Notes under the pieces: model-generated
Database searches by the model: none
What the model was told of the DNA's origin: nothing
Seen by the model: the letters and a program-made list of their open reading frames with translations, nothing else
In this document: positions 14,289 to 57,258 of the stretch, one piece after another
Layout: the number at the start of each line of letters is the position of its first letter
Position numbering within the stretch: the first letter of the stretch is position 1
Translations under genes and position numbers: made by a program
NCBI RefSeq assembly: GCF_000375425.1
Contig: NZ_AQXG01000004.1
Span: 62,001-126,000 of the forward strand
DNA: 64,000 nt
Reading direction: 5' to 3'
Source: Gracilimonas tropica DSM 19535
GTDB lineage: Bacteria > Bacteroidota > Rhodothermia > Balneolales > Balneolaceae

Positions 14289-14292
14289 CTTC

Positions 14293-14469
14293 AGTGATGA
14301 AGTGATAAAGTAGCTGGATGGTTTGGTACGTGCGCGAGGTGTATGACTGGGCTGTTTTAGATTTTCACAAAAATAACAACCGGGCCAAAAGTCCAACCGG
14401 TGGTTTGAATCGATTACTAACGTGTTCCTAACATACCTAATCACTTCATCACTCTATCATTTCATCACT
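14293..14469. repeat. Palindromic octamer-ended element A (gene-free, 177 bp)
   Basis: The ends are 19-base imperfect inverted repeats, 14293-14311 and 14451-14469, with two mismatches. The left arm reads AGTGATGAAGTGATAAAGT and is built from degenerate AAGTGATx octamers. The right arm extends inward with more octamers (AATCACTTCATCACT). The interior of about 140 bases has no reading frame. It starts four bases after the nuclease stop codon. The same ends occur at 47826-48357 and 57180-57258. It looks like a deletion derivative of the larger element. Confidence 0.75.
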
Positions 14470-14550
14470 ACAAAACTTTTCATTTGGTATTGGTCAGAAT
14501 TAAGGAGACCTTTGAAGTGCAAATTAATTTAAGGCAACATCGGTATTATT

Positions 14551-18734: not shown

Positions 18735-18944
18735 ATGGAATACGGTAAAATTAAATGGTTCGATGCACAAAAAGGATTTGGATTCATCGTTCCAGACAAC
18801 GGCGGAAAAGACATCTTTGTTCATCGCAACAATATTGAAAACTTAGGATTTGAAGAAGGCCTTGCAGACGGTGAAGAAGTTGAATTTGAAGTTGAAGAAA
18901 CTCCAAAAGGACTTAGCGCAGTAAGCGTATCCCGAGTCGGATAA
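18735..18944 (+). CDS. Cold-shock protein (CspA family), paralogue 2
   Basis: A 69-residue CspA-type RNA chaperone with RNP1 KGFGFI and RNP2 DIFVH. I start at ATG 18735 because this gives [10 protein letters not shown], colinear with the paralogue at 14689 and of identical length. A TTG 30 bases upstream is in frame but lies in the untranslated leader. Differences from copy 1 are mostly conservative. It has its own conserved leader and terminator. It is followed by lipid-related genes that may share a cold-adaptation role (inference). Confidence 0.97.
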
Positions 18945-45282: not shown

Positions 45283-46443
45283 ATGTCCCGTACCTCCCTC
45301 CCGGCAAACCTCAAACTTGGATTTTTAGGCGCCGGTCAGCTGGCACGCATGAGTTCCCTTCAAGCTTTTCGTTTTGGAATTCAAGTAGCCGTTTTCTCGG
45401 ATCGAACCGAGAATGAGCCCATGCAATTTATGACCCCTTTTTCTACTTCCGGATCATTTGAATCGGTGGATGATATGGTGGCTTTTGCCAAAGATTGCGA
45501 TGTTATCACCCTGGAAAATGAATTCATCAGCTCCGACATCCTCAAAGAAGTGCAGGAAAAAAGTGGCACGCCCATTTTTCCATCTCCAGACAGCTTTTCT
45601 CTGATCGAGAATAAACTGATTGAAAAACAAACTTTTGAGAATGCCGGAATTCCCGTTACTCCCTATAGATTAGTGAAAAGTGAAAGTGATATCGAAGCAT
45701 TTGGAGAAGAACATGGCTGGCCTTTTCTACTCAAATCTTCCAAGGGCGGGTATGATGGTTATGGCAATGAAACGGTTAAAGATCTGAAGTCTGCTAAGGA
45801 GGCTTTTGATAATTTGGGTGGCAATAAAGGCCGGGATATTGTAGCGGAAGCTTTCGTAGATTTCACCAATGAAATTGCCGTTCAGGTCGCCCGGAACGAA
45901 ACCGGTCATGTGGTGTATCCTTGTTGCGAGACGGTGCAGGAAAATCATATCTGTGTAGCTGTTTTATCTCCGGCTCCAGTAGAAGAACGGTTTCAAAAAA
46001 GAGCTCAGGAATTAGCGCTAAAAGCCACGGAGGCCATTGATGGGAAAGGGATTTTTGCCTTTGAATTCTTCCTTACCAAAAATGGCGAAGTTTTGTTGAA
46101 TGAATCGGCTCCACGACCGCACAACTCCGGTCATTACACTATTGAAGGGACCGTGGCTTCTCAATTCGAAAACCATGTTCGGGCTGTGCTGGGACTTCCT
46201 CTCGGTTCAACCCAATTAAACAAACCGGCCGTTGCCATGATCAATTTGCTAGGCACACATCAACGTCCGGCTGAAACGGATCATATCACAGAGGCGCTTA
46301 AAACCGAAGACGGGCATCTGCACGTGTATGGCAAGATCGACAGTAAAGTAGGCCGAAAAATGGCGCATTATACCTTACTTGGAGACAATCTTGAAGAAAC
46401 CTATAAAAAAGCACTACATGTGACTCGTAAGATTGAGATTTGA
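45283..46443 (+). CDS. purK: 5-(carboxyamino)imidazole ribonucleotide synthase
   Basis: Purine biosynthesis enzyme that joins bicarbonate to AIR using ATP, giving N5-CAIR. It has 386 residues, the usual length. An N-terminal pre-ATP-grasp domain (LKLGFLGAGQLARMSSLQAF) is followed by the ATP-grasp fold (ENKLIEKQTFENAGIPVTPY, PFLLKSSKGGYDGYGNETV, and the metal site EFFLTKNGEVLLNESAPRPH with HNSGHYTIEG). PurE, which uses its product, is encoded 62 bases downstream, so the pair forms a pur operon. The spacer carries a short heptad repeat right after the stop codon. Confidence 0.97.
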   Translation: MSRTSLPANLKLGFLGAGQLARMSSLQAFRFGIQVAVFSDRTENEPMQFMTPFSTSGSFESVDDMVAFAKDCDVITLENEFISSDILKEVQEKSGTPIFPSPDSFSLIENKLIEKQTFENAGIPVTPYRLVKSESDIEAFGEEHGWPFLLKSSKGGYDGYGNETVKDLKSAKEAFDNLGGNKGRDIVAEAFVDFTNEIAVQVARNETGHVVYPCCETVQENHICVAVLSPAPVEERFQKRAQELALKATEAIDGKGIFAFEFFLTKNGEVLLNESAPRPHNSGHYTIEGTVASQFENHVRAVLGLPLGSTQLNKPAVAMINLLGTHQRPAETDHITEALKTEDGHLHVYGKIDSKVGRKMAHYTLLGDNLEETYKKALHVTRKIEI

Positions 46444-46444
46444 A

Positions 46445-46472
46445 ATTCTGAATTCTGAGTTCTGAATTCTAT
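46445..46472. repeat. Heptad tandem repeat in the purK-purE spacer
   Basis: ATTCTGA, ATTCTGA, GTTCTGA and a partial ATTCTAT stand in a row, beginning two bases after the purK stop codon. The motif is rich in self-complementary GAATTC. It recalls the octamer repeats elsewhere in this window but is a different sequence. Confidence 0.6.
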
Positions 46473-46505: not shown

Positions 46506-46991
46506 ATGAGTACACCGATTGTAGGAGTGGTAATGGGCAGCGATAGTGACTGGCCCACCATGAAAGAAGCTGCTGATATTTTAGATCATTTTGGAGTGCC
46601 TTATGAAAAAAGGGTCGTTTCTGCTCACCGCACGCCGGATGTAATGGCCAATTACGGGAAAGAAGCCCGGGAACGTGGGATCAAAGCCATTATAGCCGGA
46701 GCCGGCGGCGCTGCACATCTTCCGGGAATGTTGGCAAGTCACACTACCCTGCCGGTTATTGGTGTTCCGGTAAAAACTACTGCCCTGGGTGGCGTGGACA
46801 GCCTTTACTCTATCGTACAGATGCCCAATGGTATTCCGGTGGCTACCGTTGCTATCGGAAAGGCAAAAAATGCCGGATTGCTGGCCATTCGAATGTTGGG
46901 AATGAATGATGAATCGTTGGCTGAAAAGCTGGAGGCCTATCATCGGGAGATGGCTGAAGAATCAATGAAGAAGACAGACAATTTAAAATAG
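46506..46991 (+). CDS. purE: N5-carboxyaminoimidazole ribonucleotide mutase
   Basis: Class I PurE of 161 residues that rearranges N5-CAIR to CAIR, the step after PurK. Motifs: [20 protein letters not shown] (about 6-25), [10 protein letters not shown] with the catalytic His (about 39-48), [17 protein letters not shown] (about 69-85), and [20 protein letters not shown]. The presence of purK next door confirms the bacterial two-step route rather than the class II direct route. It starts with ATG after an A-rich leader. Confidence 0.98.
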
Positions 46992-47507: not shown

Positions 47508-47828
47508 ATGATCATGACCACTACAAATACCATCGATCACAAAACCATCAAAACTTATAAAGGTATTGTGACCGGAGAAGCGATTCTTGGGGCAAATATC
47601 TTTCGGGATTTTTTTGCAGGCATTCGTGACATCGTTGGAGGGCGTTCCGGGGCTTATGAAAAGGAATTACAATCAGCCCGTAAATTGGCTTTTGAAGAAA
47701 TGGAGATGAAAGCCAACAGTGTAGGCGCAAATGCCATTGTAGCCATCGACATTGATTACGAAACCATCGGTGCCAACGGAAGTATGCTGATGGTTTCTGT
47801 TAGCGGTACGGCGGTTTTGGCAGAATGA
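47508..47828 (+). CDS. YbjQ/UPF0145 heavy-metal-binding-domain family protein
   Basis: Cytosolic protein of 106 residues from the conserved YbjQ family of unknown biochemical role. Family features are [40 protein letters not shown], and [20 protein letters not shown] followed by the beta-rich end. Its TGA stop is the first three bases of the repeat element that fills the gap to dnaJ. Confidence 0.9.
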
Positions 47829-48357
47829 TTAAGTGATAAAGTGATGAGTGATGAAGTGAGTTTTTAAACTTTATGGGCTGTTCTTCTATCAGAAATCATA
47901 TTCAATAAGAGTTTTATGATTTTTGTGATCAAGTAAATTCTTTTTGAGGCTAACTCAGGAGTTAGAATATGTCGGCTCTTGAAATACCATCCTCTTGCTT
48001 CTGGAGCAGAACCAAAAGCAATTTCATAAAATCGGGCTTTCTCTTTATTAGAGATTCTGGAATAACCCTCCGAAATATTAGCACTTATAGATCCACTTGA
48101 TCTAATTAACTGGTCGGCCATAGAAAAATATTTGCTTTGAATTATTTGCTGGGTATCAAACCAGCACAAATCAGCCAAATACAAAGAAAGGCGTTATGCT
48201 TCGATTCTCTATAAAATATCATTCTTAAGATCAGGGTGAACTTGTTCTTCCCATTCTGTATAAATCATAGCTCTTCTTTTTGTTATAGTAAGAGCTACGA
48301 AAAACTAATTCCTTAAAATATTTTAATAAAAATACTTCATCACTTTTCACTTAATCA
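47826..48357. mobile_element. Palindromic octamer-ended element B carrying a decayed four-helix-bundle (IVP) gene
   Basis: The ends are inverted repeats, left TGATTAAGTGATAAAGTGAT.. (47826-47847) and right the complement of TGATTAAGTGAAAAGTGATG.. (48337-48357), identical apart from one extra base on the left. Both are made of degenerate AAGTGATx octamers. The left arm begins at the ybjQ stop codon and the right arm ends nine bases from the dnaJ stop, so the element is the whole intergenic gap. It contains one gene, an IVP-family pseudogene. Size and cargo recall the intervening sequences inserted in 23S rRNA genes of other bacteria. Confidence 0.7.
47864..48268 (-). pseudogene. Four-helix-bundle protein (23S rRNA intervening-sequence family, TIGR02436), two in-frame stops
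   Basis: Reading from ATG 48268 the frame encodes an N-terminus typical of the family (MIYTEWEEQVHPDLKNDIL), then TAG, RIEA, TAA, and runs on in the same frame as RLSLYLADLCW to the stop at 47864. Relatives usually have W and Y where the two stops are, so each is explained by one base change. The body has the family signature MADQLIRSSGSISANISEGY, KARFYEIAFGSAPEARGWY and IIKLLLNMISDRR. A 106-residue remnant could start at TTG 48184, but I consider the gene dead. It is the cargo of the palindromic element 47826-48357. Confidence 0.82.
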
Positions 48358-48366
48358 CTCACACTC

Positions 48367-49551
48367 CTATCCAAACATATCTTTCATGCGGGAGAAGAAA
48401 TTCTTCGCGTTGTCATCAGCATTGGAGGCATCAAAATTTTCTGAGCCTTTAAGTGATTCAATTGCCTTTTTCTCAGAGTCCGACAGGTTCTCAGGTATAT
48501 ACACATTTAACCGAACGTATTGATCGCCTTCACCTGTATTATTTAATCCTTTGATTCCCCTGCCACGCATTCTTAGCATTTTGCCGGGTTGGGTTCCCGG
48601 GTCAATTTTAAGCTTGGCTTTGCCTTTCAGAGTAGGAACCTGAACTTCGGTTCCAAGAATAGCATCAGGGAGACTTAGCGTCAGGTTGTAGTAGATATTA
48701 TTCCCATCACGCTGAAAATGTTCGTGCTCTTTTTCTTCGATCAGAACAATTAAATCGCCTGCAGAACCTCCGCGACGACCGGCATTACCTTGCCCTCTGA
48801 GGGTGATGTAATTTCCATTGGAAACACCCGATGGAATATTAACCTTAATGGTTTCTTCGCCTTTTACCCGGCCTTCTCCGTTACACTTGGTGCATTTATT
48901 CTTGATGATGCGGCCATCGCCATTACAAGTAGGACAGGCCTGCACATTTACCATCTGTCCAAGCATAGTACGAGTAACCTGGCGGACTTCCCCCATTCCA
49001 TTACAAGTAGAGCAAGTTTCAAAATCGGAATTTGTTTCAGCTCCGGTACCACCGCACTTATCGCACTTTATCTGTTTTTTGATCTTGAGTTTTTTCTCTG
49101 CTCCAAATGCGATCTCTTCCAGGGTTAACGGCATGCGGATCTTCATATCCGAGCCGGGCTGCCCCGGTTCTCTGCTCCTTCGGGAACGTCCTCGCCGCCC
49201 TCCGCCAAAAGCTTCTTCACCAAAAAATCCAGACCCAAAGATATCACCAAAACGGCTAAAAATATCTTCAAAGCCCATGTTGTCGAAGTCGACACCGGCT
49301 CCACCGCCAAAGCCACCCTGACCATTTACTCCCTGATGGCCAAACTGATCGTACCGGGCCCGTTTATCTTTATCTTTGAGGACTTCATACGCCTCAGAAG
49401 CTTCCTTGAATTTCTTTTCCGCATCGGCATCTCCCTTGTTACGGTCGGGATGAAACTTCATCGCCTTCTTGCGATAGGCTTTTTTTATTTCCGCTTCCGA
49501 AGCGCCTTTATCAACGCCCAGTATTTCGTAATAATCTCTTTTAGTAGACAT
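48367..49551 (-). CDS. dnaJ: Chaperone protein DnaJ
   Basis: Hsp40 co-chaperone of 394 residues that delivers unfolded proteins to DnaK and stimulates its ATPase. The J domain has the HPD motif (FHPDRN, about 34-38). A Gly/Phe-rich linker (about 75-125) is followed by four zinc-binding CxxCxGxG repeats ([32 protein letters not shown]) and the C-terminal substrate domains ([12 protein letters not shown] and [17 protein letters not shown]). grpE starts upstream on the same strand and ends ten bases before dnaJ, so grpE-dnaJ is an operon. dnaK is not in this window. Confidence 0.98.
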
Positions 49552-57165: not shown

Positions 57166-57179
57166 ATAGTGACATAGTT

Positions 57180-57258
57180 ATGAAGTGATTAAGTGATGAA
57201 GTAGCTGTCAGAGATGTTTTATCAGAGGCTTCATCACTCTATTACATAATCACTTCAT
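57180..57258. repeat. Palindromic octamer-ended element C (miniature)
   Basis: Outer arms ATGAAGTGATTA (57180-57191) and TAATCACTTCAT (57247-57258) are exact complements. Inner arms AGTGATGAAG (57192-57201) and CTTCATCACT (57229-57238) are also exact complements. The element with its ragged flanks occupies the entire 97-base gap between the convergent SIMPL and PIG-L genes. It shares GAAGTAGCTG with element A (14300-14315 region). It has no gene. As RNA it would be a strong hairpin and could also end transcription from both sides. Confidence 0.75.

Follow-up and report, generated by a model that had tools for sequence, protein, structure and literature searches.

What is the palindromic element of about 0.53 kb that fills the gap between ybjQ and dnaJ in Gracilimonas tropica? 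We noticed it in a 64-kb stretch of this genome (hereafter the window) by its inverted ends and its cargo, a gene of the IVP family; such genes are annotated as 23S rRNA or S23 proteins, and we know of no function for them. Intervening sequences of 23S rRNA are located in helix loops. The original prediction took the element for an intergenic relative of these sequences that spreads in DNA and is tolerated in transcripts because its RNA hairpin can be cut or can terminate transcription. Its parts, its neighbours and two related hairpins of the window are as follows.

47508..47828, plus strand: ybjQ, the left neighbour (ORF; PF01906, 9.9e-38)
47823..47860, plus strand: left arm of degenerate tandem octamers, the 3' arm relative to the IVP gene (core 47826-47847)
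47864..48268, minus strand: IVP gene (four-helix-bundle family), broken (profile matches; start inferred from the homologues L117 and L118)
48287..48316, minus strand: 30-nt motif GTAAGGA-N15-CTCTTACT between arm and gene, with 1 mismatch (motif match)
48329..48360, minus strand: right arm of degenerate tandem octamers, inverted relative to the left and 5' relative to the IVP gene (core ends at 48357)
48367..49551, minus strand: dnaJ, the right neighbour, convergent with ybjQ (ORF and profile match)
14292..14470, no strand: IVP-less inverted pair of AAGTGAT units with a 133-nt loop, L015 (pattern and inverted-pair search)
57175..57255, no strand: IVP-less inverted AAGTGAT hairpin in a convergent gap, L008 (pattern search)

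Direct reading of the sequence gave a left arm core of TGATTAAGTGATAAAGTGATGA (47826-47847, 22 nt) and, on the other strand, a right arm core of TGATTAAGTGAAAAGTGATGA (21 nt, outer edge at 48357); one indel is the sole difference between them. The predicted ends of AAGTGATx octamers were thus correct to the base, and the ORFs confirmed their placement: the left arm opens with the ybjQ stop codon (47826-47828), and the dnaJ frame ends at 48367, which leaves 9 bases between it and the right arm. Ungapped extension of the pair yielded 37-nt arms that are 78% complementary and lie 454 nt apart. Under one scoring, with a score of 17, the pair ranked first among five inverted pairs in the window. 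Five Markov simulations of the window produced comparable pairs (0-2 each, with scores of 14 apart from a single 20), so chance could account for the length of the arms taken alone. It does not account for the octamer content of the element. Allowing up to 2 mismatches, we counted 13 occurrences of AAGTGATNAAGTGAT in the window (1.07 expected); with up to 1 mismatch there are 33 genome-wide, compared to 3 for the reversed pattern. Some of these 33 matches are within genes and appear fortuitous. The AAGTGAT unit also recurs in IVP-less inverted pairs at further gene junctions in the same genome. A strict search of the window for arrays of period 6 to 9 returned only 18876-18897 (period 6) and 46443-46470 (period 7), so few because the units are degenerate. 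The second, a heptamer array (AAATTCTGAATTCTGAGTTCTGAATTCT), lies between the ORFs 45283-46443 and 46506-46991 and belongs to none of the five inverted pairs mentioned above. Rfam searches of 8 loci gave no match at gathering scores.

The sole frame inside the ybjQ-dnaJ copy is the IVP gene, and there is no transposase inside. That the cargo belongs to this four-helix-bundle family, as originally proposed, was supported by matches to PF05635 (4.2e-16, 59.5 bits against a curated cut-off of 33.8) and TIGR02436 (5e-18, 65.3 bits against 24); what had gone unnoticed is that the gene is broken. From its start at 48268 on the minus strand, placed by comparison with the homologues L117 and L118, two in-frame stops interrupt it (48211-48209 and 48196-48194), and only 47864-48184 is open. 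Intact copies exist at other sites. Among L118, L117 and L004 (the element at ybjQ-dnaJ), dN is 0.05-0.08 and dS 0.63-3.1, and pairs with L116 have a dN of 0.18-0.20 and a saturated dS. The low dN relative to dS among these four copies therefore indicates purifying selection on the IVP protein. Relatives of this protein in the PDB (2GSC and 2RLD) have five chains per entry, and the element's own protein fragment matches them at E values of only 0.003 and 0.03. A Xanthomonas protein of the family is stated to be a homopentamer (PMC4990558). One IVP query protein found no IVP relatives in a phage collection.

We found that all five IVP matches in the element's own genome lie between inverted short-tandem arrays, each with a different unit. 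Two units are octamers, AAGTGATG (the element at ybjQ-dnaJ) and GTGTTATG; the others are heptamers of the CAGTTAT, GAACATC and AGGTGTT/CAAGGTT types, the last at a locus whose arms are weak (L001, arm score 11). The suggestion that AAGTGAT-type ends flank other IVP genes thus held for inverted tandem arrays as such and failed for the unit itself. Since 4 of the 5 genes use other units, the AAGTGAT octamer was rejected as a diagnostic end. Across the 11 genomes of the genus, PF05635 gave 124 matches, 8 of which were left out (near contig ends, weak or unfetched); each of two split IVP genes entered the count a single time, the first gene of L105 was excluded because it duplicates L060, and 114 loci were tested. 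Inverted arms at a score of at least 14 were present at 84 of these loci, compared to 2.0% of 502 random positions, which replaced a mispaired-flank control (9.75% at that score) since subfamilies share arms. The best period among 5 to 10 was 7 in 66 of the 84 armed elements and 8 in the other 18. The self-match of the arms peaks at lag 7 (0.585, compared to 0.313 in shuffles) and at lag 14 (0.579), 93 of 160 arrays have 4 or 5 units, and loops span 306-518 nt. Two observations count against a mobile unit, namely that 30 of the 114 loci fall below the arm threshold and that one genome (G003) has 27 AAGTGAT sites and no fetched IVP gene with this unit.

The same threshold was passed in the same genomes by 14 of 27 GIY-YIG loci and 14 of 18 Y1_Tnp loci, these being the loci long enough for the test (of 30 and 20, respectively). 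By eye, however, their ends are mostly self-palindromes, not tandem arrays, and Y1 transposase and GIY-YIG genes were rejected as owners of tandem ends because their ends differ in kind. Small GIY-YIG genes are often flanked by self-palindromes such as AAAAGCCTTCTGATTAAGTTCAGAAGGCTTTT and GATCCTGAAACAAGTTCAGGATGAC (L159, L160, L162, L164, L166, L169 and others) and may represent a further small mobile unit whose ends are of a separate type. Three GIY-YIG matches stand in a row at G001:C37:205203-206214, at a spacing of 398 bases.

Comparison of 3326 element pairs lacking flank homology shows that an IVP subfamily keeps its arms at sites that are otherwise unrelated, with a fixed orientation of the gene relative to the arms. 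In the same orientation, an arm similarity of at least 0.6 was reached by 6 of 7 pairs at an IVP identity of at least 80%, 16 of 40 at 60-80%, 3 of 49 at 50-60% and about 5 of 3230 below 50%; similarity climbs with IVP identity only above about 50%. In the opposite orientation, none of the 40 pairs at 60-80% passed and 2 of the 7 at 80% or more did; GAATTC, inside the AGAATTC-type unit, is its own complement. The overall correlation is small (0.14) and was reached in 0 of 500 Mantel permutations, with few subfamilies contributing, so that the pairs are not independent. The element at ybjQ-dnaJ aligned with L118, L117 and L116 over 561, 519 and 539 nt at 69-77% (76% over the 561 nt shared with L118), through both arms, and no homology was detected between their flanks. 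For more diverged IVP copies, the alignment was restricted to the gene. In the 11 closest pairs at unrelated sites, homology stops within 13 nt of the 3' arm edge, and on the 5' side it reaches 22-39 nt past the detected arm in 10 pairs; 9 of the 11 represent one AGAATTC-type subfamily, which has the upstream motif outside the arm. These limits place the 3' end of the unit at the arm, and on the 5' side they make the arm the end or near it.

The upstream motif, GTAAGGA-N15-CTCTTACT, was found at 56 of the 114 loci with up to 3 mismatches and at 53 with up to 2, compared to 7 of 395 control windows at 3 mismatches and none at fewer. The spacing between its two parts is 15 in 54 of the 56 loci, and we infer that the motif is a promoter or attenuator. 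Among 41 armed loci with the motif, it lies between arm and gene in 26, outside the 5' arm in 14 (e.g., L042, L051, L060 and L097) and overlaps the arm in 1. The order of arm and motif has thus changed between subfamilies, and the arm is not always the outermost part, which counts against reading it as the end. A motif scan of viral contigs gave 32 stretches.

By simple ORF calls, 64 of the 84 armed elements lie between tandem genes, 10 between convergent and 10 between divergent genes, and 44 of the 64 share the direction of both neighbours; as a baseline, 27 of 39 gene pairs in the window are tandem. The median distance to the arm is 2.5 nt for neighbours that end towards an element and 22.5 nt for those that start beside it. 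Where gaps are short, placement right after stop codons would be favoured by survival alone. A catabolic operon, presumably of the phenylacetate type, holds IVP genes at its junctions, four in one genome (L328, G064:C14:219500-228500) and two in another (L329, G006:C4). The genes of this operon encode a 3-hydroxyacyl-CoA dehydrogenase, a thioesterase, a thiolase, a hexapeptide protein, an aldehyde dehydrogenase-MaoC protein and an enoyl-CoA hydratase.

The ybjQ-dnaJ gap, read by eye, has no IVP gene in any of the 10 other genomes of the genus. What it holds is TGTGCT hairpins in G001 and G008, AGGTTTT hairpins in G002 and G005, a half array in G009, an ordinary hairpin in G004 and a palindrome of the GTAGAGACGC...GCGTCTCTAC type in G006, G010, G007 and G003 (L148-L151). 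The element's subfamily is present as a full unit upstream of a fabI-like gene (enoyl-ACP reductase family) in three relatives (G004, G005 and G006). At this site, G007 has by eye a deletion derivative consisting of arms, motif and a start-codon stub; other-unit hairpins were seen in G000, G001, G003, G008 and G010, another palindrome in G002 and little in G009. Beside a response-regulator gene, at the L113 site, an IVP-less hairpin of the GTGTTAAG type was seen by eye in 9 of 10 relatives (weak in G004), and in G005 an outer relic of this hairpin is kept beyond the element's own right arm. At a cysD-like gene (PAPS_reduct; we take its partner to be cysN), G001 has an IVP unit, and a direct heptamer array scoring at least 10 was present in 3 of 9 others. 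Arrays at this score were present in 10 of 29 orthologous IVP-less gaps of the ybjQ-dnaJ, L113 and cysD-like sites, compared to 16% of 118 gaps away from IVP genes and 1.4% of shuffles, almost all at lag 7. This is suggestive of re-occupation of array-bearing junctions by IVP units. In the same 118 gaps, taken from the window and the fetched loci, arrays scoring at least 11 have period 7 in 12.7% and periods 5 and 8 in 0.8% each, and none have periods 6 or 9-13. At another locus (L137), a GAACATC-type array lies outside the GAATATT arm, downstream of the right arm; GAACATC is used by orthologous elements of other species, and the array is an apparent relic of an earlier occupant.

A comparison of the gap in relatives had been proposed as a search for empty sites. 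The IVP gene is indeed absent from all 10, and the gaps mostly hold other hairpins: none of the four sites offered a clean empty one, and IVP-less relatives mostly carry hairpins or arrays of other units, so that simple insertion into an empty gap fails to explain them. No transposase or recombinase was found, nor, in gaps that mostly hold other hairpins, a target duplication. The proposal of a discrete element that spreads in DNA was supported by the IVP-free gap in the 10 relatives, by the presence of the subfamily elsewhere in three of them, by copies that are homologous through both arms and by the arms, weak at L001, around all five IVP genes of the genome.

The two arms of an element also change together. 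In 96 pairs of elements at orthologous sites, the arms match within an element (20.5) about as well as homologous arms match between species (21.1). The within-element match is 17-23 at every level of IVP identity, whereas the between-species match falls from 34.1 at an identity of at least 0.9 to 12.7 at 0.5-0.6, and further below that. At 50-60% identity, the two values are 23.0 and 12.7, with the within-element match favoured in 21 of 22 pairs. Some low-identity pairs at orthologous sites may reflect replacement by another element rather than descent, and the co-divergence of arms could be mutational in origin. Arms of 11 elements with a broken IVP gene match as well as the others (18.6 and 17.7).

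We think that the element in the ybjQ-dnaJ gap is probably a broken copy of a small mobile DNA unit whose ends are perhaps bound by its own IVP protein. Its anatomy, its mobility over evolutionary time and its generality are well supported. It is unlikely that the arms are instead kept for pairing in the transcript, with RNase III cutting the stem as in 23S rRNA and so making the insertion harmless. The sense RNA of the ybjQ-dnaJ copy does fold with its arms paired (z of -5.0 against 100 shuffles), the Coxiella intervening sequence is reported to be cut by RNase III in vitro (PMC4990558), and many elements lie between tandem genes, most of them in the direction of both neighbours. A stem selected as RNA should tolerate G.U pairs, however, and arm mismatches showed no excess of them: 65 are G.U-compatible in sense RNA, 59 in antisense RNA and 189 are transversions (p = 0.65), and a count by site groups gave 14 and 17. 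The mismatches thus give no RNA-pairing signature, and the originally proposed retention of the arms as an RNA hairpin found no support here, even though the RNA can pair them; their pattern is as would be expected from DNA-level matching or copying rather than from an RNA-selected stem. That the elements serve as bidirectional transcription terminators of convergent genes is hardly credible. The ybjQ-dnaJ copy and, by eye, some IVP-less hairpins do lie between convergent genes, but only 10 of the 84 elements are so placed, loops are hundreds of nucleotides long, and a terminator scan of the ybjQ-dnaJ element found no terminator-like site in either arm. With most elements between tandem genes, termination is also unlikely as the general role that had been suggested. 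The absence of an RNA-pairing signature, the constant arm match at all levels of IVP divergence and the equally good arms of elements with broken genes would all suit repeats made by the host, in which slippage expands the units, template switching matches the arms and the IVP gene is incidental. We regard this as improbable, since it leaves unexplained both the link between unit and IVP subfamily and why most IVP genes have tandem arms but GIY-YIG and Y1 genes other ends.

Hairpin arrays could conversely be primary, with IVP genes inserting into their loops and the arms being targets, not ends. The IVP-less hairpins at the L113 site with the outer relic in G005, the other-unit hairpins in the ybjQ-dnaJ gap of G001, G002, G005 and G008, the arrays in IVP-less orthologous gaps relative to background and the conserved part outside the 5' arm in one subfamily type all speak for this reading. 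We nevertheless hold it to be unlikely, because arms track the IVP subfamily and not the site, homology between copies at unrelated sites includes both arms, and the G005 case points toward an insertion whose arms match the donor rather than the resident hairpin; as a target preference it may still be true. Finally, homology between PF05635 and Avd, a protein of diversity-generating retroelements (DGRs), has been proposed from sequence and structure (PMC10053308), and the IVP protein might act with a reverse transcriptase on element RNA. This is very unlikely here: RVT_1 was detected in only 2 of 11 genus genomes and neither in the element's own genome, with its 5 IVP genes, nor in 8 others with 8-15 each. 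As far as RVT_1 detects it, reverse transcription was rejected as a general requirement in the genus.

The small mobile DNA unit that we favour would consist of an inverted array, mostly of four or five tandem 7/8-mers, followed by the 30-nt motif, the IVP gene and a matching inverted array. A multimer of the IVP protein may bind to the DNA of the two arms at their repeats and pair the ends for an enzyme provided in trans, and gene-less arms would be non-autonomous derivatives or relics. Intervening sequences of 23S rRNA might then have arisen where such a unit inserted into an rRNA gene, and there is a fair chance that the present unit is the general form and the 23S insertions a special case.

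IVP genes with such arms also occur outside the genus. In a sample of the phylum, 45 of 61 genomes have IVP genes; 2 of 29 best loci were left out as incomplete, and 17 of the other 27 have arms at threshold, with a best lag of 7 in 13, 8 in 3 and 6 in 1. We compared 11 named relatives of the subfamily. Arms of the GTGAT type predominate in their Balneola and Balneolaceae records, and a Caldilineaceae MAG (53% protein identity; a binning error is possible) has arms of the related units GAGTGAG/GAGTGAT that begin at the base directly following a stop codon. Two Bdellovibrionales matches among these 11 have no arms. On plasmids, 35 records match IVP, and arms were present at 15 of the 16 loci examined (best lag 7 in 12 and 8 in 3), including loci in Gemmatirosa and Azospirillum and one between two ribonucleotide reductase genes in Nostoc edaphicum. 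Three cyanobacterial plasmid loci (L269, L275 and L278) have the IVP gene inside a cas context with heptamer or octamer arms, the gene order being cas6-IVP-cas4 in Pseudanabaena and Anabaena and cas10-IVP-cmr3 (cmr3-family) in Picosynechococcus. IVP ORFs are also reported in rRNA insertions of CPR bacteria (PMC11270868), and a figure legend about genes linked to CRISPR names an IVP domain (PMC10910872). IVP genes within CRISPR or metabolic operons may thus be passengers, not components.

A wider reading is possible, if doubtful on balance. In it, IVP genes would form a separate class of mobile DNA in several phyla, with a multimeric IVP protein that reads tandem 7/8-mer ends. The unit rather than a fixed end sequence would be recognised, so that ends drift and are rewritten in concert with the protein. 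Lacking a transposase of its own, the class would use host replication or repair and re-occupy hairpin-bearing junctions; it would include the 23S intervening sequences and be the source of the orphan heptamer arrays of bacteria. The tie between IVP genes and inverted tandem 7/8-mer ends would give IVP proteins a natural substrate and place the 23S intervening sequences in a wider family. In the excerpts of the open-licence PMC literature, we found no report tying IVP genes generally to tandem heptamer ends.

These units resemble several known systems in part. Like MITEs, they are short and multicopy, have inverted ends, lack a transposase and have given rise to one deletion derivative; unlike MITEs, they carry a conserved gene, their ends are degenerate tandem 7/8-mers that diverge together, and no partner transposase or target duplication is known for them. 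They share a palindromic, intergenic and short form with the REP/REPIN sequences of RAYT (Y1) genes, but the 18 resident Y1 loci have, by eye, mostly self-palindromic ends and not tandem arrays. Closest is the intervening sequence of Coxiella burnetii 23S rRNA, described as 428 nt in helix 45 with an S23p ORF, a 28-bp terminal stem and, at its 5' end, usually three tandem GACAGAT heptamers (two in some strains) (PMC4990558). It has in common with the present element an ORF of the IVP family, complementary ends and tandem repeats at these ends, here octamers. The Coxiella sequence lies in rRNA and is cut out by RNase III, whereas the present units occupy protein-gene junctions, as the element here does between ybjQ and dnaJ outside the rRNA genes, and have many unit families. 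Orphan heptamer repeats are similar in being tandem and mostly intergenic. They include TAACTGA arrays in Beggiatoaceae, for which MacGregor found no evident transfer mechanism (PMC4679880), GGGAATC arrays in Xanthomonas, with 70 and 75 inverted pairs in two genomes (PMC4692102), heptanucleotide classes in Geobacter metallireducens (PMC2700814) and GGGGA(T/C)T in Nostoc. The excerpts of these reports make no link to IVP, and units of the kind described here are a possible source for these mechanism-less arrays in all four groups.
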